From: a virus
Virus record (IMG/VR): IMGVR_UViG_3300033179_000007
Span: 1-23,137 of that record
Length of the DNA: 23,137 nucleotides
Direction: 5' to 3' (one strand)
Part shown: piece by piece, positions 1 to 17,500 of the stretch
How the letters are laid out: each line of letters begins with the position of its first letter
Position numbering within the stretch: the first letter of the stretch is position 1
The notes under the pieces: model-generated
Told to the model about the DNA's origin: nothing
Databases searched by the model: none
The model's input: the letters and a program-made list of their open reading frames with translations, nothing else
Program-made: the position numbers and the translations under genes

Positions 1-2
1 CG

Positions 3-392
3 GCCGCGCAGCGGCCCGGGGCGATCGTGCTCCCGCCGAGCCCTGCGCCCGCCGCGGGCGCCGCCGCCGGCGCCACCCTCGGGGCGGCGCCGCCCACGAC
101 TCCGCCCACGACTCCGCCCCCGGCCGCGCCGGCGCCCGCCGTGGCGGCGCCCGGGCCGGTGTCCGCGTTCGGCAACGGCACGTGGCTGGTCGGCGCCGAG
201 CTCGTGCCCAACCGGTACCGCAGCCCGGGCAGTGACGGCAGCATCGGCTACTGCTACTACGACGTGACCGACGCGAACGGCAAGATCGTCGATCAGGGTG
301 TCGTTCCCGACGGGCCTGCCCGGGTCGACCTGCGGCGCCGCGCCGGGGACACGTTCACCTCGACGGCCTGCCTCGGCTGGGTGAAGGGATGA
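3..392 (+). CDS. Secreted-type protein with Pro/Thr linker and C-terminal Cys-pair domain, 5' end outside window
   Basis: The frame is open to the left edge, so the gene probably starts outside the window; the first in-window candidate start is a GTG at 27. The visible part opens with an Ala/Pro/Thr-rich low-complexity stretch containing two copies of a TPPT unit, then a compact domain beginning GNGTWLVGAELVPNRYRSPG and ending TACLGWVKG. That pattern (G-t-W-x-VG near the start, a YCYY cysteine, a late C-x-x-W) resembles a small domain found in many actinobacterial secreted and lipoprotein-like proteins, where the two cysteines probably form a disulfide. The Pro/Thr linker fits an exported or surface-displayed protein, but no signal peptide can be checked because the start is missing. 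It is the first gene of the plus-strand group, separated from the next by about 50 bases. The function is unknown; export is inferred. Confidence 0.65.
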   Translation, partial: AAQRPGAIVLPPSPAPAAGAAAGATLGAAPPTTPPTTPPPAAPAPAVAAPGPVSAFGNGTWLVGAELVPNRYRSPGSDGSIGYCYYDVTDANGKIVDQGVVPDGPARVDLRRRAGDTFTSTACLGWVKG

Positions 393-441
393 CCCGGCCC
401 TGCGTGTGGCCGATCAACGCCGACCGCGGGCGGGCAGGCTG

Positions 442-618
442 ATGCCGTTCTGGAAGAGCAAGCCGCCCATGGACGACGAGGGCCGGGACAACGATCTCGT
501 GAATGAGCCACCGGAGGGCGAACAGACAGGGACCGTGCACCGCATGCAGGTGTTCGACAACACCGGCCTGCCCTCGCACAAGCAGATCTGCCACTGCCAG
601 CTGAACAGGGACCACTGA
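442..618 (+). CDS. Small charged phage protein, unknown function
   Basis: This encodes 58 residues from the ATG at 442, beginning MPFWKSKPPMDDEGRDND and ending HCQLNRDH. An in-frame GTG at 406 would add 12 Arg-rich residues, but the MPFWKxKPP opening looks like a natural N-terminus, so 442 is preferred; neither start has a strong ribosome-binding site. The protein is acidic in the middle (EPPEGEQ) and has a late C-x-C-type element (ICHCQ) that might bind metal, although only two cysteines are present. Its stop codon shares a base with the ATG of the next gene (TGATG), indicating translational coupling within the plus-strand cluster. I do not recognise a family with a known function. Confidence 0.6.
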   Translation: MPFWKSKPPMDDEGRDNDLVNEPPEGEQTGTVHRMQVFDNTGLPSHKQICHCQLNRDH

Positions 619-851
619 TGTACATGTCCGCGACGGTGTACCTCGAGCAGGGTGTCGAGTTCCAGATCGTCGCGCCGGGTGATGGCACCGATCCGGCGAT
701 CGTGGTCTCGCAGGGCATGTCGAACCTGTTCCTCGGGCTCGTTGACCGGGACGCGGCGATCGGGCTGCGTGACGCCATCGACACCGCGCTTGCCGCAGTG
801 GCGGAGGTCGACGACCCGGCGCCCGTGCTGGGCCCGGCGCCGGGCGGGTGA
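618..851 (+). CDS. Small hypothetical phage protein
   Basis: This 77-residue protein starts at an ATG overlapping the previous stop (TGATG), and its own TGA overlaps the next ATG in the same way. The N-terminal half alternates hydrophobic and polar residues in a beta-like pattern (ATVYLEQGVEFQIV). The C-terminal half is a predicted helix (DAAIGLRDAIDTALAAVAEV) followed by a Pro/Gly-rich tail. The double overlap with its neighbours and the acidic, non-shadow composition support real coding. Small proteins of this build, with a helix of the type LRDALDxALA, are common in actinophage accessory regions but have no assigned role. The function is unknown. Confidence 0.6.
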   Translation: MYMSATVYLEQGVEFQIVAPGDGTDPAIVVSQGMSNLFLGLVDRDAAIGLRDAIDTALAAVAEVDDPAPVLGPAPGG

Positions 852-988
852 TGCCCCGCCCGCCCGCACCGCCGCCGCCGCAGCCGGCGAAGTGCCCGCC
901 GCACCGGTGGGTGGTGGTCAACGGGCCGGACGGGCAACCCGCCGGGACAGCATGCGCGAACGGCTGCGGGGGATGGATCCCCCGATGA
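851..988 (+). CDS. Tiny zinc-ribbon-like protein (45 aa)
   Basis: A 45-codon gene starts at the ATG sharing a base with the preceding stop (TGATG at 849-853) and ends with TGA at 986-988. It begins with a proline-rich run, then CPPHRWVVVNG, and later CANGCGGW. The spacing Cys-x-x-His followed about 20 residues later by Cys-x-x-x-Cys gives four potential zinc ligands in one compact fold. The Trp and Gly positions around them (HRWVVV, GCGGW) also look structured rather than random. Between this gene and the next ATG at 1005 lies GAGAGG, a reasonable ribosome-binding site for the following gene. Coding is inferred from the overlap and the Cys/His pattern. The function is unknown; zinc binding is a guess from spacing. 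Confidence 0.55.
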   Translation: MPRPPAPPPPQPAKCPPHRWVVVNGPDGQPAGTACANGCGGWIPR

Positions 989-1004
989 TCGAGAGGACCA
1001 GGCC

Positions 1005-1208
1005 ATGACGATGCAGGTGACCCGGCAGGACTTCCCGGGCGGTGAGCGATCGGACTTCGTCGAGATCGTCGACGATGGCGGCGAGCGGATGTTCGTCGAG
1101 GTGGAGTCATTCGACGACTTCGTCCGGCGCGCGAAGGCCGGTGAGTTCGACCGGAAGTTCGACCCGACGACCGGAGCGTTCACCGGGGGTGGGACAGCCC
1201 CCCGATGA
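1005..1208 (+). CDS. Small acidic phage protein, unknown function
   Basis: The 67-residue product starts at an ATG preceded by GAGAGG about ten bases upstream. It is rich in Asp, Glu and Phe (SDFVEIVDDGGERMFVEVESFDDFVRRAKAGEFDRKF), reading as two or three beta-strands then a short amphipathic helix, with a Gly/Thr-rich end. The TGA at 1206-1208 overlaps the ATG of the following Cys-rich gene (ATGA), so both are probably co-translated. Base composition and the charged hydrophobic pattern fit a genuine soluble small protein. No family with known function is recognised. Confidence 0.6.
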   Translation: MTMQVTRQDFPGGERSDFVEIVDDGGERMFVEVESFDDFVRRAKAGEFDRKFDPTTGAFTGGGTAPR

Positions 1209-1306
1209 AACAGTGCAAGTCGTGCGGCAAGAGCATCGGCGAGTGCCAGGCCAGTCAAGCCCACAAGGGCGAGGCCTGTTGCGGCGGGTGCGACCACAGC
1301 GAGTAG
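1205..1306 (+). CDS. Tiny cysteine-rich protein (33 aa)
   Basis: A 33-codon gene starts at the ATG overlapping the previous stop (ATGA at 1205-1208) and ends with TAG at 1304-1306, just before the terminator hairpin. The peptide begins MKQCKSCGKSIGEC and ends EACCGGCDHSE, giving six cysteines plus two histidines in 33 residues. The opening C-x-x-C and later C-C-x-x-C resemble the two knuckles of a miniature zinc ribbon. Such mini zinc-binding peptides are encountered at ends of actinophage operons, with unknown roles. The last position in the plus-strand cluster, the coupled start and the Cys density argue for a real gene despite its length. The function is unknown. Confidence 0.55.
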   Translation: MKQCKSCGKSIGECQASQAHKGEACCGGCDHSE

Positions 1307-1309
1307 TGA

Positions 1310-1348
1310 CAGAACGGCCCCCCTCGGGATCCGAGGGGGGCCGTTCTG
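1310..1348. terminator. Bidirectional terminator between convergent operons
   Basis: A perfect 18-bp inverted repeat (arms 1310-1327 and 1331-1348) closes on a 3-base GAT loop, with six consecutive G:C pairs in the middle of the stem. It lies 3 bases after the last plus-strand stop and 36 bases after the last minus-strand stop, exactly where the two transcription units converge. There is no strong T-tract on either side, as is common for terminators in high-GC actinomycetes. Being symmetric, it would act on transcripts from both directions. Confidence 0.85.
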
Positions 1349-1384
1349 CGTGCGGGGGTCATTCCCGTGTGTAGGACCGGGACG

Positions 1385-2056
1385 CTACCACCGCCCGCTG
1401 TACTGCGAGATGAACGGCGGGTTGCTCGGCAGGCCAGCCGACAGCAGCACCGCCGCCGCCACCGCCGCGCCGGCCGGGGTCTGCCCGGCCGTCGGGTTCG
1501 ACGTCCCCGACGAGTTCAACCGGTACGCGAACACGTTCGTGAACGCGGTGTCGTGGTTGTACAGGAACCCCGACGTCGCCCCGTCCAGGCCCTGCGCCTG
1601 CGGCAACGCGCACCCGGCGTACAACTCGCCGGTGCCCGACGCCACCAGCGACGGGTAGGTCATCGTCGTCGACGACGCGTTCGATGTGGTGCCCTGCGCG
1701 TCGACTGTCCACACGGTCGCCGCGCCCAGCCCGGCGGTGAACATCCACCCGTCGAACTCGCGCTGCGTCGACCCGATCGCCGCCGAGTACGTCGCGGTCA
1801 GCGTCGACGACCCGGTCGCGCCGGCCTTCGCCCAGAACAGCGCCCCCGAACCGGCGAACGCCCCGGACGCGATCGGCCCGGTCGTGGAGAACGCGCCCAT
1901 CGAGTTCGTCCCCGACATCCCGGTCGGGGTGATCGTCGCGGACGCGGTCGCCGCGAACATGACGACGATGTCCCCGACGTTCGCGACCGTCACCGCGATG
2001 GTCGACACGGTGGTCGAGTTCGCGTTCAGGAACGAGCCCGTCGTCGTGATCGCCAC
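1385..2056 (-). CDS. Putative minor tail or surface protein, beta-rich
   Basis: This 223-residue protein is made almost entirely of Ala, Thr, Ser, Gly and Val with regular hydrophobic alternation, typical of phage tail-tip or receptor-facing beta-sandwich proteins. The N-terminus (MAITTTGSFLNANSTTVSTIAVTV) and the C-terminus ending FISQYSGRW are of a kind seen in minor tail or virion proteins of actinophages. There are no transmembrane segments and no signal peptide. The GTG start at 2056 lies 4 bases after the stop of the upstream lyase-like gene and has no strong ribosome-binding site, so it is probably read by coupling. It is the last gene of the minus-strand operon before the terminator. 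The structural role is inferred from composition and location, not from a recognised domain. Confidence 0.6.
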   Translation of the reverse strand: MAITTTGSFLNANSTTVSTIAVTVANVGDIVVMFAATASATITPTGMSGTNSMGAFSTTGPIASGAFAGSGALFWAKAGATGSSTLTATYSAAIGSTQREFDGWMFTAGLGAATVWTVDAQGTTSNASSTTMTYPSLVASGTGELYAGCALPQAQGLDGATSGFLYNHDTAFTNVFAYRLNSSGTSNPTAGQTPAGAAVAAAVLLSAGLPSNPPFISQYSGRW

Positions 2057-2059
2057 GGG

Positions 2060-3496
2060 TCAGCCCAGGGCCTGTTGCGTGGTGGCCACCCGGAACCCGT
2101 CGTGGTGCACCACCCCGACACCGTTGATCGCGGCGTCACGGTAGTAGGTCAGCATCGGCCGGTTCCCCGGGTCGCCCGGGTAGATGTCGGAGATGTGGCA
2201 GGTCTGCGTGCCGGCGCAGGTGCCGTTGCTGTTCTCCGGTGGGGTCGCGGTGAACGTCTGGCGCACCCCGTCACGCCACAGCTCGACCAGCCCGATGTTC
2301 GCGTTGCTGCTCCAGCGCACGTGGACCTGGTAGGCGTGCCACACGCCCTTGTCCAGCGGCCCGGTCCACACGTTCGTGATCCCGGTGTACGGCTGGTTCG
2401 GCCGCGGCCGGGTCTCCAGGACGATGTTGTTGTTCTCGGCGAGGAAGTTCAGCGGCGGTGACCCGTCGACGGTCGAGTGCCACTGCATCAGGACCTGCCA
2501 CGAGTTCGACGTCGGGAACTGGGTGTCGACCTTGACGTCCCACGAGTACCAGAGGTCGCGGCCCTCGGTCTCGTTCGACGGGCCGACCAGCTGCGCCCGC
2601 TCACCGCAGCAGAACGGCTGGTCCCCGTCGTGGACCTCGAGCCGGGCCGCGCTGTTGCCCTGGAAGCCGGGGTGCTCGATGGTCAGGGCGTAGTCGCCGC
2701 CGGGCATCCCGGTGCACGGGTTGTTGTAGACGTGGGTCTGGCACAGCGGCCACTGGTTGAAGTTCCCGGTCTCGAAGTCGCCGTTGAATAGCACCGTGCC
2801 CGGCGGCGGCCCGGCGGTGGTGGTGGGCGGCACCGTGGTGGGCGGCACCGTGGTGGGTGGCACGGTGGTGGGTGGCACCGTGGTGGTCGGCGGCGGCGGG
2901 GTCGCCTTCGGCAGGTAGGTGCACATCGTGGTCGCGATTCCGGACCCGGCGTCGAGGCCCTGCGCGCGCACGATCACGTCGGCGACCGTCGCGGCCGGCG
3001 GCGCGGTCTCGGTGGCCGCGATCCGCAGGTACGGGCGGGCCCCGTCGACGTCGAACCAGGCGCCGTCGTCGTGGCCGACCAGCGCGGCGCCGGCGAGCCA
3101 GTCGACCTCGACGCGGGCCTGCGCCGGGTCACCGCCGGTGCGGACGTCCGCGGAGAACTCCCACGTCTGCCCGGCGGCGACCGGGCGGGGCGGCAGCCCG
3201 ATCCCGACCGGGCCGGTGTTGTCGCCGTTGCGGGCGTTGTAGTCCCAGCCGGCGACGACGTGGTCGCCGGGCAGTCCGCGGGCCGCGGTCATCCCGGGTG
3301 TCAGCGTCGACCAGCCGGCTGTGTCGGTCTCCAGGATCGGGTTCCCGCAGCCGTTGACCGGTGTGCCGTACGGGTTGAACCCTGGCAGCGGGCCCGTCTG
3401 GGTGGGGGCCGCGGCGGCGCTGAGGCCAGCGGCTGTGATCGCGAGGACGGCCACGGCGCACACGACGCCGGCGACCCCCCGCTTCCGGATCATCAT
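2060..3496 (-). CDS. Secreted two-domain protein with C-terminal polysaccharide-lyase-like domain
   Basis: The 478-residue product begins with a positively charged then hydrophobic segment (residues about 4-30, ending SAAAAPT) that reads as a Sec signal peptide. Residues 31-195 form a beta-rich domain of carbohydrate-binding-module type (ETDTAGW, WEFSADVRTGG, ARVEVDWLAG). A TTVPP repeat linker spans about 197-230. The remainder starts NGDFETGNFNQW and contains WYSWDVKV, WQVLMQWHS, NIVLETRP, GVWHAYQVHVRWSS and VELWRDGVRQ. This arrangement matches my knowledge of the heparin lyase I-like polysaccharide lyase family (Pfam Polysacc_lyase), a jelly-roll fold cutting uronate-containing polysaccharides. 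The substrate cannot be predicted. Several Cys (CCGE, CAGTQTC) fit an extracellular protein. The ATG at 3496 has GGAAG upstream. It lies 15 bases after the holin gene, inside the phage late operon, which is unusual for a signal-peptide enzyme. Fold assignment is likely; activity is unproven. Confidence 0.72.
   Translation of the reverse strand: MMIRKRGVAGVVCAVAVLAITAAGLSAAAAPTQTGPLPGFNPYGTPVNGCGNPILETDTAGWSTLTPGMTAARGLPGDHVVAGWDYNARNGDNTGPVGIGLPPRPVAAGQTWEFSADVRTGGDPAQARVEVDWLAGAALVGHDDGAWFDVDGARPYLRIAATETAPPAATVADVIVRAQGLDAGSGIATTMCTYLPKATPPPPTTTVPPTTVPPTTVPPTTVPPTTTAGPPPGTVLFNGDFETGNFNQWPLCQTHVYNNPCTGMPGGDYALTIEHPGFQGNSAARLEVHDGDQPFCCGERAQLVGPSNETEGRDLWYSWDVKVDTQFPTSNSWQVLMQWHSTVDGSPPLNFLAENNNIVLETRPRPNQPYTGITNVWTGPLDKGVWHAYQVHVRWSSNANIGLVELWRDGVRQTFTATPPENSNGTCAGTQTCHISDIYPGDPGNRPMLTYYRDAAINGVGVVHHDGFRVATTQQALG
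2821..2880. repeat. 15-bp tandem repeats encoding the TTVPP linker
   Basis: Four near-identical 15-bp units (TGGTGGGCGGCACCG with C/T and C/G variants) lie head to tail, with a decayed fifth unit after 2880. They are in frame and encode the proline/threonine linker of the lyase-like protein. Copy number may vary by slippage without disrupting the reading frame. Confidence 0.85.
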
Positions 3497-3511
3497 GATG
3501 GGGCTTCCTGC

Positions 3512-3775
3512 TCAGGGGGTCGAGCTCGGGTAGGTCGGGGACTGGCCGGGGGGCAGCGCGTCCGGGTCGGCGCGCGGGGTGTGCCGGGCCAGCCACCCGG
3601 CGGCGAACGTCGACCCGGTCACGATGATCAGGTCGGCGAGGCCTGCGACCGGGGCGGGGACGGCGTCGGTGACGAACACGTAGGTGTCCAGCGCCCACAG
3701 CACCGCCGAGGACACCGCGGCCGCGATCGCCGCTGCGGTCACCTTCGCCTCGACCGGGCCGGTGGACACGCTCAC
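3512..3775 (-). CDS. Putative holin
   Basis: This 87-residue protein has two predicted membrane segments (about 13-35 and 43-62) separated by a short Asp/Pro turn (DTYVFVTDAVPAP), followed by a basic then Pro-rich cytoplasmic-type tail (LARHTPRADPD). The opening VEAKVTAA and the AAGWLARHTPR element are characteristic of small holins that sit beside endolysins in actinophages. Holins oligomerise in the host membrane and time lysis. Its GTG start overlaps the endolysin stop (GTGA at 3775-3772), so the two are translated as a lysis pair. Only 15 bases separate its stop from the start of the secreted lyase-like gene. Confidence 0.8.
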   Translation of the reverse strand: MSVSTGPVEAKVTAAAIAAAVSSAVLWALDTYVFVTDAVPAPVAGLADLIIVTGSTFAAGWLARHTPRADPDALPPGQSPTYPSSTP

Positions 3776-4698
3776 TTCCCCTTCACCAGCAGCGCCACGG
3801 CGGGCTGCACACCCGGGTGCGCGCGCCTGCCCTCCACGGTGAACCCGCGCGTCCCGGCCGGGAGCTCCCAGTTGTCCACGCCGGGCGGGGCCTCACCGAT
3901 CGGGGCGTTCGCGTTCCACGCGACGACCCGCCATCCGGCGACCTGCCCCCAGTACGCCACCCACCGCACGAACGCCCGGTCGATGACCAGGCTGTTCGTC
4001 GCTGTCTCGGCCGGGCACGACCCCCGGAAGTTCAGGCCGTCGGGGTCGGGCTCGAAGTGGTCGTCGTAGTAGCGCAGCTCGATCAGGTCCATGGTGTCCT
4101 CCGCAGTCGGGGTGGGCAGGGTCGACCCGGCGGCGATCTGCCGGGCCAGTTCGATGACGTGCGGGACCTGCGCGATGCGCCGGTCTCCGGGGCACACCTT
4201 CCCCGGTGCGGCCGACCACAGCTCCCCGCCGGGCACCCGGTAGGGGTCGCAGCCCAGCCGGTGGTAGCCGACGCCGCGACGCTCAGGGCGGGAGTCGGGG
4301 ATCAGCTGCAGCGGGATGTCGTAGTACACGGCCAGGGCGGCGGTGATGACGGCGAGTTCCTCGACCTGCGCGGGTGTCCACGCCGGTACCTGCGCGCCGT
4401 CGCGGGCGTCCCACACCGGGAACTCGGGGCCCATGTCGGCGGTCTCGATCGACACGATGCGGCGGTTCCCGTTCAGGTTCGCGTCGGCCTGGTAGTCGGT
4501 GTGCTGCCACTGGTAGGTGGTGCCGTCGCCGCCGACACCGAAGTGGGATTCGTTGCCGCGGTAGCCCCCGGCCCGGAACATGGCGTCGGTCCCGGGGAGG
4601 GTCCCGACCATCGTGTGGTAGCAGATGATGTCGTGGGAGATCAGCCGTGGTTGCGTCTGCGGGCCCAGCGGCCGCCAGTCCCCGACGCGGACGTTCAC
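3772..4698 (-). CDS. Endolysin, N-acetylmuramoyl-L-alanine amidase (Amidase_2 type)
   Basis: The 308-residue enzyme would cut the amide bond between N-acetylmuramic acid and the stem peptide of peptidoglycan, releasing progeny at lysis. Residues 18-175 form the amidase domain. Zinc ligands are visible as His28 (CYHTMVG), His146 (GYHRLGCD) and Cys169 (GKVCPGD), and the family signatures ESHFGVGGDG, YQWQHTDYQADAN and IVSIETADM are all present. Residues about 200-308 form a separate C-terminal part (LIELRYYDDHFEPD to LLVKGK) that probably binds the cell wall, although I do not recognise its fold. The GTG start at 4698 overlaps the stop of the preceding small gene (GTGA), and its stop overlaps the holin start. 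There is no signal peptide, consistent with holin-dependent release. Confidence 0.92.
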   Translation of the reverse strand: MNVRVGDWRPLGPQTQPRLISHDIICYHTMVGTLPGTDAMFRAGGYRGNESHFGVGGDGTTYQWQHTDYQADANLNGNRRIVSIETADMGPEFPVWDARDGAQVPAWTPAQVEELAVITAALAVYYDIPLQLIPDSRPERRGVGYHRLGCDPYRVPGGELWSAAPGKVCPGDRRIAQVPHVIELARQIAAGSTLPTPTAEDTMDLIELRYYDDHFEPDPDGLNFRGSCPAETATNSLVIDRAFVRWVAYWGQVAGWRVVAWNANAPIGEAPPGVDNWELPAGTRGFTVEGRRAHPGVQPAVALLVKGK

Positions 4699-4892
4699 CG
4701 GTCGGCCCTCCCGGTCAGTGCGTCGATCTCCGCCACGGTGACGAGGTAGGGCCCGACCTGCCTGCCCGGTCGGGTGGCATCTCCGCCGTCGTCGAACCGG
4801 TCGGCCAGCGCGGCTGGCGCCATCGGGTTCGTTCCGACCCGATCACACCACGCGGCGTACGCGGCGACCTCGAGCTGCCGACGGCGGGTCAC
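4695..4892 (-). CDS. Small hypothetical protein in the lysis cassette
   Basis: This encodes 65 residues. Its GTG start overlaps the stop of the exoribonuclease gene (GTGA at 4892-4889) and its TGA overlaps the GTG of the endolysin gene, so it is locked between two confident genes by 4-base overlaps on both sides. The N-terminal half is helical (QLEVAAYAAWCDRVGT) and the rest contains PAALADRFDDGGD and YLVTVAEIDALTGR, the latter resembling a small helix-turn element. There are no membrane segments. Real coding is well supported by the double overlap; the function is unknown. Confidence 0.65.
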   Translation of the reverse strand: MTRRRQLEVAAYAAWCDRVGTNPMAPAALADRFDDGGDATRPGRQVGPYLVTVAEIDALTGRADR

Positions 4893-5416
4893 CGGTGCCC
4901 GACCCAGCGGCCGAGGTCGCGGGCGTGGCGGGCGTCGTCGAGGGCGTGATGGATGTTCCCGACCTTCGGGCCCGGGTCACCGGCCGGCATCTTCTCGATC
5001 TCCTGCTGCAGGTCGTGGGTGAACATCGGCAGCCGCATCGGCAGGTCGGCCATGGTGCCCCACAGCTGGCAGAGCACGACGTGGTCGTACGCCGCGTAGT
5101 CCGCCCACAGCTCGGGTGTCTCGCCGTCGGCGAGCAGGAACGCCCGGACCTCGTGCGCGATCCGCTCGCGGCTGCGGACCGTGGGGTTCAGCAGGTCCAG
5201 GCGGGCGGCCGCCGCCGCGCCGCCGCCGGCGGCGCTGATCTTGGGTAGCTGCGGCCACACGTTGTCCCGTAGCCACGGGTGCGTCCGCACCCGGTCGACG
5301 GGCATGTCGGCGTTGACCGCGTAGTACTCGCGGTTGTACTGCGTGACCAGCCCGATCGAGATGAGGTCGATGGTGCGGCCGTCCTCGATGAACTCGGTGT
5401 CGTAGTAGATCCTCAC
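4889..5416 (-). CDS. 3'-5' exoribonuclease, Rv2179c-like (DEDDh)
   Basis: The 175-residue protein starts at GTG 5416, which has GGAGGA about ten bases upstream; longer upstream extensions in the same frame are Pro/Arg-rich and not protein-like. It begins VRIYYDTEFIEDGRTIDLIS, matching the actinobacterial Rv2179c family of DnaQ-fold 3'-5' exoribonucleases. Candidate acidic metal ligands are Asp6 and Glu8 (DTEF), Asp111 (YAAYDHVVLCQLWG), and the final pair His156 with Asp161 (NIHHALDDARHARD). All four DEDDh positions appear intact, so the enzyme is likely active on RNA with a 3' overhang. It is the first gene of the endolysin-holin run and overlaps the next small gene by 4 bases. A phage may use it in RNA turnover or to alter host transcript stability; that role is inference. 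Confidence 0.85.
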   Translation of the reverse strand: MRIYYDTEFIEDGRTIDLISIGLVTQYNREYYAVNADMPVDRVRTHPWLRDNVWPQLPKISAAGGGAAAAARLDLLNPTVRSRERIAHEVRAFLLADGETPELWADYAAYDHVVLCQLWGTMADLPMRLPMFTHDLQQEIEKMPAGDPGPKVGNIHHALDDARHARDLGRWVGHR

Positions 5417-5577
5417 GGGGCGGGGTCTCCTCCGGGTCGTATGTGCTGGCGGGTGCACTATCCCTCGCCGGGGCGGCGCTCGTATCGTCGAGGACAGCCG
5501 CCCGGCGTGTAGGGCCGGGCGGTGACGGGTGGTGGCCGGGTCGGGCGAGAGCCTGTTCACCGACCACCACCCCGCGT
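5417..5577. other. Non-coding gap with a 9-bp hairpin
   Basis: About 160 bases lie between the coiled-coil membrane protein stop and the exoribonuclease start. I see no convincing gene in either direction. A perfect inverted repeat with 9-bp GC-only arms (5498-5506 and 5514-5522) and a 7-base loop could form a hairpin in the minus-strand transcript. It may attenuate or process the message before the lysis genes; there is no T-tract. The exoribonuclease ribosome-binding site lies at the left end of the gap. Confidence 0.45.
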
Positions 5578-5985: not shown

Positions 5986-6475
5986 CGTCGCGTCCGGGTC
6001 TACCGGTGGCGCGCAGCTCGGCGGGCAGCGCGGCGAGGTCACGGCGGATCTGCACGACCCGGAACAGGTTCGACACCGCGAAGCACAGCGGCAGGCACGC
6101 GAGCGCCCACCCGGACATGCCGCGGTTCCCGACGATCGCGACCGCGTACGCGGCGAACCATGCGGCCTGCACGGACAACCCGATCCTTTCGATCAGCAGC
6201 CCTTCGAGTCGGTAGCGGGCGACTCCGTAGAGGGTGAGCGCCCCGGACGCGACGAGACCAGCGAAGTACAGGGCGTCGTAGGGCGGCGGGAACACCTCGT
6301 TGATCACCGGGCTGATCGACTGGTCGAGCAGCAGACCAGTCAGCCCGATGATGATCGCGGTGATGCACACGAGGACCTCGTGGCTGGATCGGCCGGTGCG
6401 GATCACCGCGGTCCGGGGCCGGTCCAGCCATGCGCGGACCCGGCCGGGCCGGGTCCACCGCCGCCACGACGTCAT
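5954..6475 (-). CDS. Polytopic membrane protein (four spans), lysis region
   Basis: The 173-residue product starts at ATG 6475, whose ATGA overlaps the stop of the GH16-type gene. Four hydrophobic segments are visible: about 34-50 (VLVCITAIIIGLTGLLL), 67-86, 103-116 and 122-137 (WALACLPLCFAVSNLF). They are framed by a basic N-terminus (SWRRWTRPGRVRAW) and a basic, Gly-rich C-terminus. Small multi-span proteins next to the holin and coiled-coil membrane protein are typical of actinophage lysis regions and could be a second holin, an anti-holin or an exclusion protein. I cannot choose among these from sequence. Confidence 0.72.
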   Translation of the reverse strand: MTSWRRWTRPGRVRAWLDRPRTAVIRTGRSSHEVLVCITAIIIGLTGLLLDQSISPVINEVFPPPYDALYFAGLVASGALTLYGVARYRLEGLLIERIGLSVQAAWFAAYAVAIVGNRGMSGWALACLPLCFAVSNLFRVVQIRRDLAALPAELRATGRPGRDGDRDGGPGGV

Positions 6476-7617
6476 CCCGGCATGGTGTCGGGATGTCGGT
6501 ACACGCGGTAGGCGTCGACCAGCATCACCCCGGGGCCCGTGGTCTTCGCGCTCTCGGGGAACCAGTCCAGCTGGATGGTGCCGTGCATCGCCCCGAACGC
6601 GCCGTAGTTGAAGTGCGCCTGGTTCGTGTCGGTGAAAAACAGCATCCCGTCGCACCAGCCGCGGACCCCGGTGCGGCACCACTCCATCTCGTACCAGTGC
6701 CACTGCGTCACGTCGACGTCCAGGGCGCCGGTGGTCTGCTCGGTGCTCAACCCGCCGCTGCTGGAGTAGTGCAGGAAGAACTGCATGCGGTTCGCGCCGC
6801 ACTTGCCCTCGGCGTAGTCGATCTCCCCGCCGCCCTTGGACCAGTTCTCGGCGTGCGGCCAGGTCAGCAGCACCGGGTGCCAGCGGGGATCCCCGGACGG
6901 CACCTTCATCCGGGCGGCCCACCGCCCGAACCGCTGTGCTCGCTTGTTGGCCATGCCGCCGGTCGTGCCCTCCGCGGTGCCGTCAACGCGCAGCGCCCGC
7001 CCACCCAACGCGGTCGGATCGTCGACGAACGAGAACTGCCCGGGCCGGCGCAGCCCCTTGCCGCCGTGCCCCACCGAGTCGTACGGCGACCAGCGGTCCG
7101 GGTCGAGCGGCCCGGTGAAGTCGTCGCGGTGCACCTCCATCGGGACCCACCCGTCCGCGACCGCGCGCGGGCCGTGCTGCCCGCTTCCGGTGGGCAGCGG
7201 CGGCGGGCCCGGCGGCTCGGGGATGGTGCTCGCCACGATGGTGACGACGCTGCCGCCGTCGGGGACCAGCGCGATGGTGTACGCGGTCGCGGGGTGCAGC
7301 GACCCGAACGTGAGGTGATCCGCCGTCCCGGGCAGCGTCGTCGACCACGCCGCGGTGCCCTTCGTGTCGGTCTTGTCGCGCCCGATGGTCCACTTCGCGA
7401 CGTCGGCCCGGTCGGTCTCCCACGCCACCGTGACCGAGCTCGACGTCGCCTCGGTGACCTTCATCGTGACGGTGCCGGGGATCGGCGGGTCGACCTGCCC
7501 GAGCAGGGTGACGAGGTCGGCAGCCTGCAGTGACAGTGCGCCGGCCTGGCGGGCGAGAGCACCGGCAGCGCCGGCGACGTCGAGAGCGGCCGCGCGGATC
7601 GCGTCGTTGTTGACCAT
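6472..7617 (-). CDS. Tail-associated GH16-family glycoside hydrolase with FN3 domain
   Basis: The 381-residue protein starts at ATG 7617 with GGAAGG upstream. Residues 1-42 are a helical Ala/Leu-rich segment (IRAAALDVAGAAGALARQAG), possibly a virion-attachment or trimerisation helix. Residues about 45-130 form a fibronectin type III domain (VTEATSSSVTVAWETDRADV, LHPATAYTIALVPDGG). A Pro/Gly linker (131-145) leads to a concanavalin-like GH16 domain. Its catalytic signature is visible as Glu265-x-Asp267-x-x-Glu270 (GGEIDYAEG), with flanking FGRWAARMKVPSG, WHPVLLTWP and WHWYEMEW. GH16 enzymes hydrolyse beta-1,3/1,4-glucans or galactans; the substrate here cannot be predicted. There is no signal peptide, and the location just after a collar-type fibre gene suggests a virion component that degrades host surface glycan. 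Its stop overlaps the next gene start (ATGA). Confidence 0.85.
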   Translation of the reverse strand: MVNNDAIRAAALDVAGAAGALARQAGALSLQAADLVTLLGQVDPPIPGTVTMKVTEATSSSVTVAWETDRADVAKWTIGRDKTDTKGTAAWSTTLPGTADHLTFGSLHPATAYTIALVPDGGSVVTIVASTIPEPPGPPPLPTGSGQHGPRAVADGWVPMEVHRDDFTGPLDPDRWSPYDSVGHGGKGLRRPGQFSFVDDPTALGGRALRVDGTAEGTTGGMANKRAQRFGRWAARMKVPSGDPRWHPVLLTWPHAENWSKGGGEIDYAEGKCGANRMQFFLHYSSSGGLSTEQTTGALDVDVTQWHWYEMEWCRTGVRGWCDGMLFFTDTNQAHFNYGAFGAMHGTIQLDWFPESAKTTGPGVMLVDAYRVYRHPDTMPG

Positions 7618-7667: not shown

Positions 7668-8378
7668 TCAGTAGTAGATCATCCAGTTCAGGGCCATGGA
7701 CACCTGTCGGTTCTCGTGGGCGCCGCTACCACCGATGGTCGACTCGGTGATCGACACGGTGTGGGAGTGCGAGCCCTGGGTGTCGGTGCCGAACCCGTGG
7801 GAGTGGTCGCCGGGGAAGTTGTTGTACGACGCCGGCAGGGTGACCCCGGAGCCGGGGGGGACGACGTTCGTGGTGCCGGTGGTGTGCCCGCCGTGGTTCC
7901 CGGAGTTCCCGGTGGTGCCGCCGTGGGAGTGCGACCCGGCGGAGTTCGTGCCGGACCCGGTGACGTTGTGGTCGTGGCCGGGCATCTCCCCGGTCGTCAG
8001 GGTGTGCCGGGCCTCGCCGACCATCGCCCCGAGAGCGTAGGTGTCGGCGCCGAACGTCCCCACCCCGACGATGACCTTCCCACCGAGGGAGGGCAGCCCG
8101 AACGTGGTGGAGCCGTCCCCGACGGTGAACAGGTTCGTCACCGCGGTGAGGCCCTGGTCCTGCACCCACTGCCACAGCACCGGGTAGTCCGCGCGCAGCA
8201 GCGTCTGCCCCAGGCAGAACACGGTGCCGGTCTTCGCGGCGCCGCGGAACGTCGGCTCGAGGTCCCCGACCGGGCGCGTCGAGGTCCGCGCGAGCAACGT
8301 CTCCTTCAGGTCCTTCAGGTCGGCGGTGACCTTCGCGAGCTGGTCGACGACGTCGTCGACCGGGCGGTCGTCGGCCAC
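7668..8378 (-). CDS. Tail collar-domain fibre protein with HxH-rich tip
   Basis: The 236-residue protein has a short N-terminal heptad helix (VVDQLAKVTADLKDLKETLLA) and then a phage tail collar domain. The collar domain is recognisable by GTVFCLGQTLLRADYPVLWQWV, FGLPSLGGKVIVGVG and the characteristic end ENRQVSMALNWMIYY. Between about 125 and 215 is a Gly/Ser/Thr-rich region carrying repeated His-x-His pairs (GHDHN, GSHSHGG, GDHSHGFG, GSHSHTV). In trimeric phage needles and short fibres such pairs bind iron or zinc along the fibre axis. The protein probably forms a trimeric receptor-binding fibre. Start GTG 8378 lies just after the stop of the upstream small gene at 8383. Confidence 0.85.
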   Translation of the reverse strand: MADDRPVDDVVDQLAKVTADLKDLKETLLARTSTRPVGDLEPTFRGAAKTGTVFCLGQTLLRADYPVLWQWVQDQGLTAVTNLFTVGDGSTTFGLPSLGGKVIVGVGTFGADTYALGAMVGEARHTLTTGEMPGHDHNVTGSGTNSAGSHSHGGTTGNSGNHGGHTTGTTNVVPPGSGVTLPASYNNFPGDHSHGFGTDTQGSHSHTVSITESTIGGSGAHENRQVSMALNWMIYY

Positions 8379-8729: not shown

Positions 8730-10091
8730 CTACACGAACTCGACGGTAACCGTTTCGACCTTATTCTTGTCGACGGACACGGAACGTTTCCTGATTCGGA
8801 ATGCGCCGTCCAAACCGAGACGTTCGTGAACGCGATAGGCGACCGTATCACCGACGTTGTACGAGGACAGCGGAGCATCCGCGACGACCCGCATCTGCGG
8901 GCCCGGGACGATCAACTGATCGTTGCGGGCATGCAGCGTGCCCAGCAGATGATCGTTCAGCGTGGCGGTCTCGGACACCCCGTCGTAGGACTCGGTGACC
9001 GCGGCCCGCCCGAACTGGGCGCGCACGTTCGCGTCGAACACCGTCCCCCAGATCGGGTCACCGGTCCCGGTGCCCGACCCCATCACATCCGAGGCGACGT
9101 CCCCGGGCGCCACCGACGCGGCCGCATCGTTGGACGTGATCGACTGCCCGTCGAACACGATCGCGTTCTCGCCCGTGGAGCGGTCGACACCCTTCAGCGG
9201 GTACCACAGCATCAGGTCCCGCGTCGTCGGATCGACCTCGATGTCGAACCCGTTCTCGCGGCGCGACAACTCCTCGATCCGCTGCCCGACGTTGTGGTTC
9301 TCGGCCTGCAGATACGTGGCGTCGCGGGTCACCCCGGACGTGGCGACGTGGGATGTGCCGATCCCGTAGTTGCCGTAGCTGCTGTTCTGCCAGTTGCCGA
9401 TCAGCGTCTTCACGATGGTGAACTGGTCGGTGTTCGCGAACACGGTGTCGGTGTCGACGTCCCAGTACCGCAGGTAGCCCAGCAGCCCGATCGCCTGCAT
9501 CGTCACCGTCTCCGACTGGGTGTTCCACACGATCAGCGGACCGGCGAAGATCAGTTCACCGTCGCGGTAGAGCCACAGCTCCGACGGCATCTGCCGCAGC
9601 GCCCGCAGCCGCTGCACCACATCATCGGACAGCGACGAGATCCCCGCGCCGGCCTGCAGCGTCGGGACTTTCGACAGCTCGTCGACGTAACTCAGCCCGG
9701 TCCACAGGATCGAGTCGACCGCCACGAACGTCGGCGGCCCGGACGGCTGCATCAGCCGGGCGACCATCTGCAGCTCGTAGCCGGTGGTGCGCCCGGGCCG
9801 GCGGTGCAGCGTCGTCAGGTCGAACTTGATGACGATGACCGGGGTGCCCCACGACTCCCCGGAGGGGATCGACGTCGGCGACACCGTGACGGTGCCGGGG
9901 GTGATCGTCGGGGTGCCCCACGACTCCCCGGAGGGGATCGACACCGGCCGCACGACGCCGTCGTTGATCGTCGGGATGCCCCATGCCTCCCCCGACGGGA
10001 TCGACACCGGCGAGATCAGCTGCGTCAGCGACGGGGGCGGATCGAACCTGCGGGCCCGCCGGCGTACCGGGATCCGCCAGCGGCGGGACAC
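8730..10091 (-). CDS. Minor tail protein, siphovirus ReqiPepy6 Gp37-like
   Basis: The 453-residue protein starts at GTG 10091 with GAGGAG ten bases upstream. The first 28 residues are Arg-rich. Residues about 29-88 hold three copies of a SIPSGExWGxP unit. The body (residues 95-453) has the layout of the Gp37-like phage family: TTGYELQMVARLM, WLYRDGELIFAGPLI, ETVTMQAIGLLGYLRYW, GFDIEVDPTTRDLMLWYP and a C-terminal VGDTVAYRVHERLGLDG. These proteins form part of the distal tail hub or baseplate-like tip. The last 80 or so bases, near 8730-8825, are much poorer in GC than the surrounding sequence. Family assignment is confident; the structural detail is inference. Confidence 0.85.
   Translation of the reverse strand: MSRRWRIPVRRRARRFDPPPSLTQLISPVSIPSGEAWGIPTINDGVVRPVSIPSGESWGTPTITPGTVTVSPTSIPSGESWGTPVIVIKFDLTTLHRRPGRTTGYELQMVARLMQPSGPPTFVAVDSILWTGLSYVDELSKVPTLQAGAGISSLSDDVVQRLRALRQMPSELWLYRDGELIFAGPLIVWNTQSETVTMQAIGLLGYLRYWDVDTDTVFANTDQFTIVKTLIGNWQNSSYGNYGIGTSHVATSGVTRDATYLQAENHNVGQRIEELSRRENGFDIEVDPTTRDLMLWYPLKGVDRSTGENAIVFDGQSITSNDAAASVAPGDVASDVMGSGTGTGDPIWGTVFDANVRAQFGRAAVTESYDGVSETATLNDHLLGTLHARNDQLIVPGPQMRVVADAPLSSYNVGDTVAYRVHERLGLDGAFRIRKRSVSVDKNKVETVTVEFV
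9841..10005. repeat. Three in-frame 33-bp repeats encoding SIPSGExWGxP units
   Basis: Copies begin at about 9841, 9910 and 9973. The first two are nearly identical over 33 bp and the third is diverged. Spacings of 69 and 63 bp are multiples of three, so they encode a repeated protein motif (SIPSGESWGTP) at the N-terminus of the Gp37-like tail protein. The high identity of the first two suggests a recent duplication or gene conversion. Confidence 0.8.
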
Positions 10092-13129: not shown

Positions 13130-16100
13130 TCACCGCTTCGTGCGCAACAGCATGCGGGTCGACTGCACCGACTCGGCGAGGTCGGGCCCGGAGATGTTGA
13201 ACGTGTCCCCGCCCGCGCCGGCCAACGCCGCGGACAACGACCGCACGTCGGCGCGCAGCCGCGACACCTCGTCGACGACCCGACCCGACCCGTCGCCGCC
13301 GCCCTGGTAGCTGCGCGTCTCCGACGGGGACAACACCCGCTCGGTCTGCCCGGACAGGTTGATCGCGGCGTGCCCCGACGACAGCATCGCGCCGGTGTCG
13401 GCCAGGTGCGCCGGCATGATCCCGCCGCGGCCGTACCAGCCGTGGGCCTGCCAGAACGCCTTCGCCCCGATCGGGTCCCGGTACCGGCTGGCGATGTAGC
13501 GCATGCCGGCCAGGGACTGCAGCGCCGGGTCGGACGTCTTCGCGATCCCGGTGCTGGCCCAGGTGCCGTTGAGGAACTGGAACAGCCCGTACGCCGTGCT
13601 GGTCGGGTTCTGCGCGTTCGGGCGGCCACCGGACTCGTGCTGGATGATCCACTGGAGGGCGGCGTACTCGGCGCCGCCGCCCCACCCGAACTGCGCGGCG
13701 GTCCGCTGGATGACATCCCAGACGGGGCCGCCGGCCACGGCCGACCCGCCGCCGCCGCCCAGCGCCGCGGCGGCGGCGGCGGCCGCGCGGGCTATCGCGG
13801 CTCGTGCCGCTGCCTCGTGCGCGATCAGCTTCGCCTGCACTTCCTTCACCAGCACACCGCGCATCTCCGCGGTCTCACGCTGGAACACCTCGGGTGCCAA
13901 CGTCGAGAACCCCTTCCCGGCGTTGATCCACCCGCCGAGCGCGAGGTGCTGCCCGCCGGTCGGGTCGTAGATCCCGCCGCCGGAGAACTTGCGGGTGTGC
14001 CCGCGGGGCGCCTGCCCGCCGGCCGCGCCGGGCGCCGTGTTCGCCAGGAACGAGGTGACCCCGGAGATCCCGCCGCGGCGCGCGGCCGCGTTCGCGTCGG
14101 CGACGTACTTGCGCCCGTACATCCCGGACACGGCCTGCGTCCACTCCGGGCGCATCACGGCCTCACCACCGGACAGGTGCAGCCCGCCCGCGGTCGGTGA
14201 GAAGAAGTGGTGCACGTCGCGGCCCGGCGTGTTGCCGGGCATCACCCCGGAGTCGACGTAGGCGCGGTCGGTGCCGGGGCCGCCCCACACACCGCCGGCG
14301 GCGAGCCCGGTGTTCCCCGACCCGAGGACCTCCCCGGTGCTGGAGAACTTGTAGGCGGTCACCCCGGTCGCGGTGACGGTGAACGACCCGTTGGGTAGGT
14401 GGCTGACCTGATCGGCCATGGCCTGCAGCGACGCCTTCACCGGCCCGGACGCCATGTCGGCGAGCCTCTGCAGCTCGGCCTTCTGCGCGGCCGCGCGCTG
14501 CTCGGCGGTGGCGTGCGCCCCACCGAGGGTGTCGAAGTTCGACACCGCGGTGTGCATCGCCGCGGCCAGCGGCCCGGTCGCCTGGTCGGCGAGCCGGCCG
14601 AGCTCGTCTTTCTCGGCGCGGGCCGCGATCTCCGCGGTCGACGCCGCCCGCGCCGCGGTGTCGGTGCCGTTGGCCATCGCGAGCAGCGCATCCCGGGTCG
14701 GGCCGGTGGCCTGCCCGGCGAGCCGGATCAGCTCTTCCTTGTAGGCCTGCGCGCCGATCTGCGCGACGTTCGTCGCGCCGGTCGCGGTGGCGTCCGCTTC
14801 GGCCTTGCGCTGCGCCGCGGCGGCCGCGGACAGGTTGGCCTGCATCACCTGCAGGTTGGCCTGCGCGAGGTCGCGCTCCGACACGCCGCGGATGGCGGCG
14901 ACCTTCGCGGCGTTGTCGTTCGCGGCCGCAACGTTGATGACGGCCTGCTGGTAGGCGACGTCGGCGTTCGCTGCGGAAGCCGCGGCCTTCGCGGTCTCGG
15001 TGATCTGGTCGCCCAGCGTCTTCGTCGCCGCCGCTGCCTCGCGCTGCGCTGCCTCGAGGACCGAGGTCGCGATCTGCAGGTTGCCCGCGGCCAGGGTCGC
15101 CTGGTCGGACTGCGGGCCGAACTGCTGGACGGCGTCGTTCCACAGGACCTGCGCGATCTTCACGCGGCCCTGGGCCTGCTCAACCCCGGACAGCTGGTCG
15201 ACCTGCGCGCGCATCGAGTCGACCAGCTTGTTCACCGAGTCCTGGTGCGCCTGCTCGGCGGTCACGGCGTCCCTGGTCGCGGCGGCCGTTTCCTTCGTGG
15301 CGAACCCGGTGCGCTCGACGGTCATCGCCCGCGCGGCGTCGGCTTGGCTTGCTGCCTGTTCCGCAGCGGCCATGTCGTTGACGGCCTGCGTGAAGTCCTG
15401 CGACCCCTTCAGCACGGCCGCCGCGGTCTCGTCGGTCTTGTCGCGCAGGGCGTCGTAGAGGACCCCGAGCCCGATGATGGCCGCACCCAGTACCGGGATC
15501 GCCGCCCCAGCCTTGGAGAACGCGGTCGCGATCCGTCCCGTGGTCTCCTCGGTGGCGCCCAGCCGGCCAGCGAGCCCGGATAGCGACGCCCCGAGGGTGG
15601 TGACGATCCCGCTGACCGGCGACAGGACCCGCCACGACAACGCGAACGCCGACACCGCCGGCGCCAGCGGGCCCAGGGACGTGAGCACGTCACCGATGGC
15701 CCCGACGATCGGGCGCAGCACCGCGGCAACGCCCTGCGCCTCGATCGCCAGCCCATGCAGCACATCACCGGCGAGCTTCGCCAGCTGCGGGATCAGCGGC
15801 GCGACCGCCACGGCGATGTCCGACACCGCGGTCGCCATCTCGTGTAGCCCGCCGGTGCGGGCCGCCGAGGTGAGCGCCTGCGCGATCGCGGTGTCCAGGG
15901 CGCGGACCCCGGGCAGCAGGTTCGAGAACGAGTCGCCAAGCTCGCGGAACCCGGCGGCGATCCCCGACTGCGCGACTGGGGTCTCGAGGAACCGGCGCAG
16001 CTCCGCGGACACCTGCAGGGCGCTGTCGAGGAAGTCGTGCCCGCCGGCCGACGCGGCCTTGAAGAAGTCGACGACGGCATGCCCGACGTTGGACAGGACG

Positions 16101-17251
16101 TCGCCGAGCTCCTTGGTCTTGACGATCCCGGTCTGCATCCATTCCTGGAGCTGACCGGTCTGGCGGGCGTTCTCGATGAACGCCCGGAACTTGCCGGTCA
16201 CCGCGGTGAGTTCGTCGGCCAACATCGGCATGAACTTCGTGCCGACGGTCCCGATGTCCAGGAACGTGGCGGCCACGTTCTGCCCGACCGGGATCATCTC
16301 GTGCATCGCCGAACGGGTGTTCGTGAATATCGTGCCGACGTCCTTCGTCGTCGACGCCGACTTCGCCCAGTCGAGGATGCCGGCCGCGGACTTGTTCAGC
16401 TCGACCGCGATCCCACCGAGCCCGGTCTTCAGGACCGGGAGCTCCGCCCGGGCCAGGCCCTGAACCTGCTCGCGCATCCCCGCGAACAGCTTGGTCTGGA
16501 CGTCGAGGCGGATGTCGGCCCACGCGCCGCCCATGCCGCGGATCGCGGTGATGGTGTCGCGGGCGTTGGGCGGCAGCTGCGCCAACGCCTCGTTGACCTT
16601 CTTCAGCTGCGCGGGAGTGCCGGCCGGGCCCAGGGCGTCGCTGACATGGGAGAACCCGACGGCGAGGGTGCCGGCTGCGGCGCCGCCGGCGAGCAGCACG
16701 GCGGGGAGCAGCCCGGCGACCCCGGTCAGGTCGCTGATCGACGAGGCGATCCCGGCGACCTGAGGGATGATCGACAGCGCGGACGGGCCCAGGGCGATGC
16801 TGTTGAGGGACTTCCCCAGCATCGCGACCTTGATGAGGGTGTCGCTGAAGGTCTTGTCGACGTCGACCTTGACGGTGGCCTTGCGGCCGTCGACCCGGTC
16901 GACGGCCGCGTCGAGCACGCCGAGACGTTCCAGCGCCGCGGCGACGTCGGCGTCGATCTGGATGTCGCCGGAGTTGCGCAGCGCGGCCAGGCGCGCCTTG
17001 AGCTCGTCGAGCTTCGCGGTCGCGTCGGCCGCGGAGATGTCGACGCCGACGCGCTGGTTACCGAGCTCGACCAGCTGGCGGCGGAGCTCGGCCAGCTCGC
17101 GCTGTGCGTCGGTGGAGTTCGCGTCGAGCTGGATCTCCGGCAGGGACCGGACGGCGTCGCTGATCCGGCGGCGCATCCCGAGGGCGAAGGACCCGATGCG
17201 GGCCTCGGCGCGGGCGGTGTCGACGTCGACGTCGTAGTGCAGCGTCGCCAC
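13130..17251 (-). CDS. Tape measure protein with lytic transglycosylase domain
   Basis: From GTG 17251 the product is 1373 residues; an upstream in-frame extension to 17320 is Pro/Gly-rich and lacks coding character. The first 250 residues are helical with heptad character (TDAQRELAELRRQLVELG). Hydrophobic segments lie near 172-197 (LLPAVLLAGGAAAGTLAVGF) and 583-603 (AIPVLGAAIIGLGVLYDAL). The middle is Ala/Gln-rich coiled coil with repeated TGPxxxALxxMA units near 830-970. After an Ala/Gly tract comes a soluble lytic transglycosylase domain (about 1185-1275) with Glu1206 in QHESGGR, AYGLFQFLNGTW and YIASRYRD. The protein sets tail length and probably passes the envelope during DNA entry, cutting peptidoglycan locally. 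By the usual scale of about 1.5 angstroms per residue the tail would be near 200 nm; that is an estimate. Confidence 0.95.
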   Translation of the reverse strand: MATLHYDVDVDTARAEARIGSFALGMRRRISDAVRSLPEIQLDANSTDAQRELAELRRQLVELGNQRVGVDISAADATAKLDELKARLAALRNSGDIQIDADVAAALERLGVLDAAVDRVDGRKATVKVDVDKTFSDTLIKVAMLGKSLNSIALGPSALSIIPQVAGIASSISDLTGVAGLLPAVLLAGGAAAGTLAVGFSHVSDALGPAGTPAQLKKVNEALAQLPPNARDTITAIRGMGGAWADIRLDVQTKLFAGMREQVQGLARAELPVLKTGLGGIAVELNKSAAGILDWAKSASTTKDVGTIFTNTRSAMHEMIPVGQNVAATFLDIGTVGTKFMPMLADELTAVTGKFRAFIENARQTGQLQEWMQTGIVKTKELGDVLSNVGHAVVDFFKAASAGGHDFLDSALQVSAELRRFLETPVAQSGIAAGFRELGDSFSNLLPGVRALDTAIAQALTSAARTGGLHEMATAVSDIAVAVAPLIPQLAKLAGDVLHGLAIEAQGVAAVLRPIVGAIGDVLTSLGPLAPAVSAFALSWRVLSPVSGIVTTLGASLSGLAGRLGATEETTGRIATAFSKAGAAIPVLGAAIIGLGVLYDALRDKTDETAAAVLKGSQDFTQAVNDMAAAEQAASQADAARAMTVERTGFATKETAAATRDAVTAEQAHQDSVNKLVDSMRAQVDQLSGVEQAQGRVKIAQVLWNDAVQQFGPQSDQATLAAGNLQIATSVLEAAQREAAAATKTLGDQITETAKAAASAANADVAYQQAVINVAAANDNAAKVAAIRGVSERDLAQANLQVMQANLSAAAAAQRKAEADATATGATNVAQIGAQAYKEELIRLAGQATGPTRDALLAMANGTDTAARAASTAEIAARAEKDELGRLADQATGPLAAAMHTAVSNFDTLGGAHATAEQRAAAQKAELQRLADMASGPVKASLQAMADQVSHLPNGSFTVTATGVTAYKFSSTGEVLGSGNTGLAAGGVWGGPGTDRAYVDSGVMPGNTPGRDVHHFFSPTAGGLHLSGGEAVMRPEWTQAVSGMYGRKYVADANAAARRGGISGVTSFLANTAPGAAGGQAPRGHTRKFSGGGIYDPTGGQHLALGGWINAGKGFSTLAPEVFQRETAEMRGVLVKEVQAKLIAHEAAARAAIARAAAAAAAALGGGGGSAVAGGPVWDVIQRTAAQFGWGGGAEYAALQWIIQHESGGRPNAQNPTSTAYGLFQFLNGTWASTGIAKTSDPALQSLAGMRYIASRYRDPIGAKAFWQAHGWYGRGGIMPAHLADTGAMLSSGHAAINLSGQTERVLSPSETRSYQGGGDGSGRVVDEVSRLRADVRSLSAALAGAGGDTFNISGPDLAESVQSTRMLLRTKR

Positions 17252-17282
17252 GGGGGGACCCCCTCGGGTTGGAGGTCCCCCC
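17252..17282 (-). promoter_or_regulatory. Hairpin spanning the tape measure ribosome-binding site
   Basis: Perfect 9-bp arms (17252-17260 and 17274-17282) enclose a 13-base loop immediately upstream of the tape measure GTG. In the transcript the Shine-Dalgarno-like GAGGGGG begins in the loop and continues into the 3' arm, so pairing would mask part of it. This may limit tape measure translation, which must be kept low relative to tail tube protein. The effect is inferred. Confidence 0.55.
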
Positions 17283-17500
17283 TGCGGCGGCCCTCGGTAA
17301 GGCAAGCACGTGGCTGTCAACCGTGTCGATCTCTGGAGATCGACATCGCCGATTCGAGATCTTCGTACCCGCTGGTCAGGCTACCTGCGGGGCGATCTTT
17401 CTCTCAGGATCGACGTTCACAACTTTGACAGGTGGTTGTACCGGGGCGGAAAGGATCTAGCGTACGGGCCGCTCAGGGGCCAGGAACGGCCCATCGCGTG
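17283..17500. other. Non-coding segment with palindrome and TGTCAA motifs
   Basis: About 218 bases between the chaperone-like gene and the tape measure hold no convincing gene; the three minus-strand frames all stop soon after 17501. The segment is visibly poorer in GC than its surroundings. It contains a 22-bp imperfect palindrome with 10-bp arms (17324-17333 and 17336-17345), another GATCGAC half-site at 17409-17415, and two TGTCAA motifs in opposite orientation (plus strand 17315-17320, minus strand 17430-17425). The plus-strand motif in context reads CGTGGCTGTCAAC. This looks like a regulatory or protein-binding region rather than a decayed gene. Confidence 0.6.

Follow-up and report, generated by a model that had tools for sequence, protein, structure and literature searches.

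A predicted exported polysaccharide lyase behind the lysis genes of a phage late operon, with relatives among secreted actinobacterial enzymes

Most of the phage depolymerases that have been studied sit on the virion and aid entry. The virus record IMGVR_UViG_3300033179_000007 carries, directly behind its lysis genes, a gene for a polysaccharide lyase-like protein (P0001) that starts with a predicted signal peptide. The questions are whether this gene belongs to the phage, where it came from, and what an exported lyase would do for a phage at the end of infection. The whole stretch of 23,137 bases was analysed and is called the window below. Its GC content is 71%, and the source looks like a virus of high-GC bacteria.

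The late block and the lyase gene

The late block of the window lies on the minus strand. Its genes, the parts of the lyase gene and the hairpin behind the block are listed below.

13130-17320, minus strand: tape measure protein (late block)
13475-13669, minus strand: Transglycosylase SLT domain towards the C-terminal end of the tape measure protein (Pfam)
8730-10091, minus strand: minor tail protein (late block)
7668-8378, minus strand: collar-domain tail protein (late block)
6472-7617, minus strand: fn3-GH16 protein without a signal peptide (Pfam GH16, E 9.1e-7)
4889-5560, minus strand: Rv2179c-like 3'-5' exoribonuclease / RNase H family gene, directly preceding the endolysin (Pfam, PHROG)
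3772-4698, minus strand: Amidase_2 endolysin (Pfam, E 2.9e-8)
3512-3775, minus strand: holin-like membrane protein of 87 aa (homologues in actinophage contigs)
3504-3509, minus strand: Shine-Dalgarno sequence AGGAAG, 7 nt upstream of the ATG of the lyase gene (read from the sequence)
2060-3496, minus strand: lyase gene, predicted exported polysaccharide lyase P0001 of 478 aa (ORF and translation; PF14099)
3407-3496, minus strand: predicted Sec-type signal peptide, residues 1-30, with predicted cleavage near AAA/AAP (rule-based scan and hydropathy)
2912-3406, minus strand: N-module, CBM4/9-like, residues 31-195 (homology to Micromonosporaceae N-modules)
2801-2911, minus strand: Pro/Thr linker with TTVPP repeats, residues ~196-232 (read from the translation)
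2063-2797, minus strand: polysaccharide-lyase domain, residues 234-478 (Pfam, fold, profile match to 2ZZJ)
1385-2056, minus strand: final gene of the block, separated from the lyase gene by 3 bases (PHROG tail match, weak, E 0.0088)
1309-1349, no strand assigned: strong hairpin between the convergent gene blocks (folding z-score -6.2)

The endolysin is 42% identical to lysin A of Brevibacterium phage LuckyBarnes, which is its closest lysin A in the phage records. The 87-aa membrane protein has a weak PHROG holin match (E 0.068) and homologues of 41-44% in two actinophage contigs (L072 and L079). In L079 the gene for the homologue immediately follows an endolysin-like gene, in support of a holin-like role. 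As read in the translation, the minor tail protein opens with a VSIPSGEsWGtPtI-like repeat in three copies.

The LuckyBarnes late operon ends with lysin A and the holin, followed by convergent genes. In the window, two more genes follow the endolysin and the holin-like gene before the hairpin and the convergent small genes beyond it. Thus the lyase gene occupies what appears to be an accessory position, where the late operon ends. The hairpin is near-perfect, with 19 bp and GC-rich, and it is likely to be a terminator. No gene within 1-3500 has a firm phage homologue, and the last gene of the block (1385-2056) had no match in the phage records. At the contig edge, 27-392 on the plus strand encodes a Pro/Ala-rich protein of 121 aa whose start is possibly cut; it had no Pfam or phage-record match, and its PHROG match was only at chance level.

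The ORF and its translation bear out what an earlier note on this DNA had read from the letters: the gene runs exactly from 2060 to 3496, its product has a leader and a TTVPP linker, and it begins 15 bases after the end of the holin-like ORF. It lies on the minus strand and has an ATG start, which the Shine-Dalgarno sequence, a good one, supports. The leader consists of the n-region MMIRKRG, the hydrophobic core VAGVVCAVAVLAITAAG and an Ala-rich c-region. We applied a crude Sec rule that asks for a net positive n-region, an uncharged hydrophobic core and a small-X-small site. P0001 was the only one of the 145 window ORFs of at least 60 aa to pass. The Mangrovihabitans homologue described below (P0005) also passed, and that of Mycobacterium neglectum failed. 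With its n-, h- and c-regions and its small-X-small site, the start of P0001 has the make-up of a Sec signal, with cleavage predicted near AAA/AAP.

The lyase domain

PF14099 (Polysacc_lyase, Pfam) matched residues 241-417 of P0001 far above chance (E 3.4e-29). The score of 102.7 bits exceeds the cut-off of 29.9 and the match covers profile positions 1-174 of 210, placing the domain in this family. A structure model of the lyase domain built from six diverse relatives had moderate confidence (pLDDT 66, pTM 0.71); a model of full-length P0001 was too poor (pLDDT 43) and was set aside. The nearest solved fold to the domain model was the PL20 glucuronan lyase 2ZZJ of Trichoderma reesei (E 4e-9, TM 0.66), and the second was the PL13 heparinase I 3IMN (E 1.3e-7). 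Further fold matches were to structures of GH131, PL36-type and PL7 alginate lyases.

By sequence, a profile of the same six relatives found 2ZZJ with E 3e-5 and 15% identity, the sole profile match at that level, and heparinase I was absent from this search up to E 10, so that the domain does not fall into PL13 by sequence. A direct PDB search with the P0001 sequence alone returned no lyase. We discarded as spurious a phmmer match of P0001 to an antibody light chain.

The earlier note had left its lyase assignment to a structure check, and the predicted fold is indeed related to lyases. Its term 'heparin lyase I-like' is right only as far as the superfamily goes, because both the fold ranking and the profile match put PL20 nearer, with heparinase I second. 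On the model, the domain would thus be a member of the jelly-roll lyase superfamily that is closer to PL20 than to heparinase I. H340, Y452 and D466 do not vary among the six relatives, and five of the six retain R300 and Q338, suggesting a preserved site. By analogy with the descriptions of Cip1, 2ZZJ and vAL-1, Q338 may be the cleft glutamine and D466 the calcium-binding aspartate (PMC3764139).

Cellular and phage relatives

Close relatives of P0001 were found in cellular genomes and not among the phages searched. A tblastn search against 50,697 phage records gave no match, and IMG/VR scans with P0001, with the lyase domain alone and with an N-module alignment found nothing; an alignment of three lyase rows found only one IMG/VR lineage, at 23% (L106/L107). 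The GTDB genome scan found Mangrovihabitans endophyticus (72%) and Mycobacterium neglectum (40%). The Mangrovihabitans protein (P0005, Micromonosporaceae; NZ_BMMX01000001.1, L003:7878-8726) is 72% identical over 241 residues and has 282 aa with its own leader. Its gene is flanked by GH32/43, FG-GAP and DUF2961 genes to one side and by a regulator to the other, none of them phage genes. In a tree of 21 domains, the window and Mangrovihabitans grouped with support of 100/99, followed by M. neglectum (98/97). A close cellular homologue of this kind, at 72% and with tree support of 100/99, is what would be expected of a soluble, host-derived phage EPS depolymerase. Near relatives are rare, since samples of 61, 81 and 118 actinobacterial genomes returned only Mangrovihabitans itself. 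When 61 Micromonosporaceae genomes were searched with the endolysin and with the last gene of the block, matches were weak or absent, and thus the host stays 'actinobacterium, perhaps Micromonosporaceae'.

PF14099 was also found in other phage proteins. Among 50 virus records, two (G066/G067) have it in a tail-like protein of 2024 aa, and one (G111) has a double PF14099 preceded by an fn3-like start, in a protein that follows a long collagen-like fibre. These records were picked mainly by tape-measure similarity, and therefore the counts are no census. The PF14099 proteins of the two IMG/VR lineages are distant versions, and no signal peptide was seen at their starts. The first ~260 residues of the 2024-aa protein (L032:12500-18571) look alginate-lyase-type by eye and are followed by the PF14099 domain; the stretch is present in four metagenome contigs. 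In the other lineage (L106:4996-11419), a large phage contig, a collagen-like fibre of 1572 aa precedes the fn3-double-PF14099 protein, and this double-lyase protein had no match in the phage records. The L032 (2024 aa) and L106 (564 aa) proteins share the Pfam family with P0001 but differ in identity (22-29%), in lacking a signal peptide, in their tail-like or fibre-adjacent context and in their cysteines. In the tree, the three virion-style domains lie apart from the window group, with their own placing unsure. Judged from these sequences, virion-style PF14099 proteins do occur in phages, and the putatively exported form with an N-module is the unusual one.

The cysteines divide the relatives in the same way. 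Mature P0001 would have eight, two in the N-module and six in the lyase domain. The N-module pair is present in all four N-modules without exception, as are the six lyase cysteines in the three cellular-type proteins. Of the six lyase positions, five are without cysteine in all of the virion-style phage domains, which number three, and the sixth has it in only one of these domains. This pattern is consistent with folding outside the cytoplasm, where disulfides may form.

The N-module (residues 31-195) is 33-37% identical to the N-terminal modules of three Micromonosporaceae secreted proteins with leader-like starts and a GH16-like catalytic domain. Most matches in this search were to the linker only; a check of each domain in turn retained L005, L007, L008, L009 and L010. 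The earlier note had called the module carbohydrate-binding-like. In P0001 itself the N-module has no Pfam match to CBM4/9 (PF02018), and the sole CBM_4_9 match of the protein is at residues 235-271, at the start of the lyase domain (E 0.049). One of the Micromonosporaceae N-modules matched CBM_4_9 over nearly its whole length (E 2.9e-4), with 21.7 bits against a gathering score of 25.9. The description is thus upheld for the homologues below the gathering score and not for P0001 directly, and we call the module CBM4/9-like in the sense that it may work like one, claiming no family membership.

The GH16 domain encoded at 6472-7617 shares 31-36% identity with the GH16 domains of the same Micromonosporaceae proteins. 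Therefore the phage holds relatives of both halves of one host enzyme type, in two genes: the lyase gene with a predicted signal peptide and the GH16 gene without. The fn3-GH16 protein had no match in the 50,697 phage records, and none of the genomes sampled was seen to combine the N-module with this lyase. The fn3-GH16 protein is a possible partner enzyme of P0001. More tentatively, and with more doubt than confidence, the two might attack one extracellular matrix, with the exported lyase from the dying cell opening the matrix before virion release and the GH16 protein, encoded among the tail genes, as the other arm; the parts would include two that Micromonosporaceae have fused in secreted N-module-GH16 proteins.

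Origin, role and known systems

We consider it probable (roughly 60%) that the lyase gene is a captured actinobacterial secreted enzyme, carried as phage cargo next to the lysis genes where the late operon ends. The sequence gives good support to export and to the identity of the domains; substrate, timing and benefit are what we infer from it. The earlier note had favoured a host-type secreted enzyme over a virion depolymerase, and several independent lines agree with it: the predicted signal peptide, secreted proteins encoded on chromosomes that are homologous to each half (72% in the case of the lyase), the conserved cysteines, the lack of a recognised tail domain in P0001 and the location after the lysis genes. 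In the proposed mechanism, the lyase would be made late, together with the lysis proteins, and exported via Sec in the last part of infection, before or during membrane failure. It would fold outside the cell with disulfides, the N-module would keep it on the polysaccharide, and the lyase domain would cleave a uronic-acid-containing acidic exopolysaccharide by beta-elimination. Progeny might then be freed from the capsule or matrix of their own host, or the matrix of neighbouring cells might be opened, and the enzyme need not be carried on the virion. Lysis alone would also release P0001, as with PghP of phiNIT1 (PMC6966330), and the leader would give a head start.

The gene might instead serve a lysogen, by remodelling its surface or by allowing the use of uronans from the environment, and not phage release. 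Such a role would suit a secreted enzyme of host type that has its own Shine-Dalgarno sequence and fills an accessory position where the operon ends, and the sugar-degrading enzyme genes that adjoin the Mangrovihabitans homologue would fit it as well. We find this unlikely, since the fragment showed neither an integrase nor a repressor, and since the close packing with the lysis genes on one strand points to expression late in infection, at a stage when the enzyme would not be produced by a lysogen. The host-like character of the lyase gene also makes it worth excluding that the gene comes from a chromosome beside a prophage end or from a wrong join within 1-3500, where firm phage homologues are absent. 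The same strand, the spacings of 15 and 3 bases, a third-position GC similar to that of the neighbours, the small and closely packed genes beyond the lyase gene, the weak tail match of the next gene, and the absence of the N-module together with this lyase from every genome sampled make a flank or join quite unlikely.

P0001 could also be attached to the tail and act at entry, with the leader as a membrane anchor or a leftover. PF14099 does occur in phage tail-like proteins (the 2024-aa protein of L032 and the fn3-double-lyase protein after the fibre gene of L106), and the next gene (1385-2056) has a weak tail match. P0001 itself, however, matches no PHROG, and neither Pfam nor PHROG shows a known tail or adsorption domain in it; its predicted signal peptide and its position after the lysis genes do not suit a virion protein, and its cysteine pattern and phylogeny side with exported cellular proteins. 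We thus regard a virion component as very unlikely. Finally, a CBM-like module joined to a lectin-like jelly roll might make a non-catalytic, sugar-binding or wall-anchored protein, for example one that blocks superinfection. Cip1 has the same fold without convincing activity (PMC3764139), and for ORF22 of Thermobifida phage P1312, which has a signal peptide and CBM4_9, anchoring in the wall and the prevention of superinfection were proposed (PMC4569894). The invariant H340, Y452 and D466, with R300 and Q338 in five of the six relatives, point to a preserved site, and a non-catalytic role seems highly improbable.

A phage enzyme made to be exported by the infected cell would mean that some phages also handle the host matrix at exit, and the locus would then be a clear case in which a phage took a secreted sugar-cutting enzyme from its actinobacterial host.

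Among known proteins, P0005 of Mangrovihabitans resembles P0001 in its lyase domain (72%), its own leader and six common cysteines, but it is chromosomal, has only 282 aa without the N-module and the TTVPP linker, and lies beside CAZyme genes. PL20 2ZZJ, the nearest solved fold by TM (0.66) and profile (E 3e-5), is fungal and only 15% identical, and a glucuronan activity of P0001 is putative. PL13 heparinase I 3IMN of Bacteroides thetaiotaomicron, the second fold match (E 1.3e-7), is larger (a 372-aa chain), 12% identical and missed by the sequence profile.

Among phages, PghP and LevP of phiNIT1 are soluble capsule-lytic enzymes, apparently host-derived, that act on host capsule or EPS, and PghP is a non-virion protein released at the end of infection (PMC6966330). 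Like P0001 they are phage-encoded and apparently host-derived, but the enzyme classes differ. Related phage GH32 enzymes were described without a signal peptide (PMC4595243), unlike P0001, and Sec export of a late phage enzyme is known for the endolysin Lys44 of fOg44 (PMC6116005). P1312 ORF22, compared by its published description, is likewise an actinophage gene whose product is predicted to be exported and has a CBM4_9-type module; it differs in its metallophosphatase domain, its C-terminal placement of the module and its 1096 aa (PMC4569894). Host-derived soluble phage EPS enzymes (phiNIT1) and an annotated actinophage protein with signal peptide and CBM4_9 (P1312) are thus already known, and what appears to be new here is a PF14099 lyase with a predicted signal peptide and an N-module, which was not found in the other viruses searched here.
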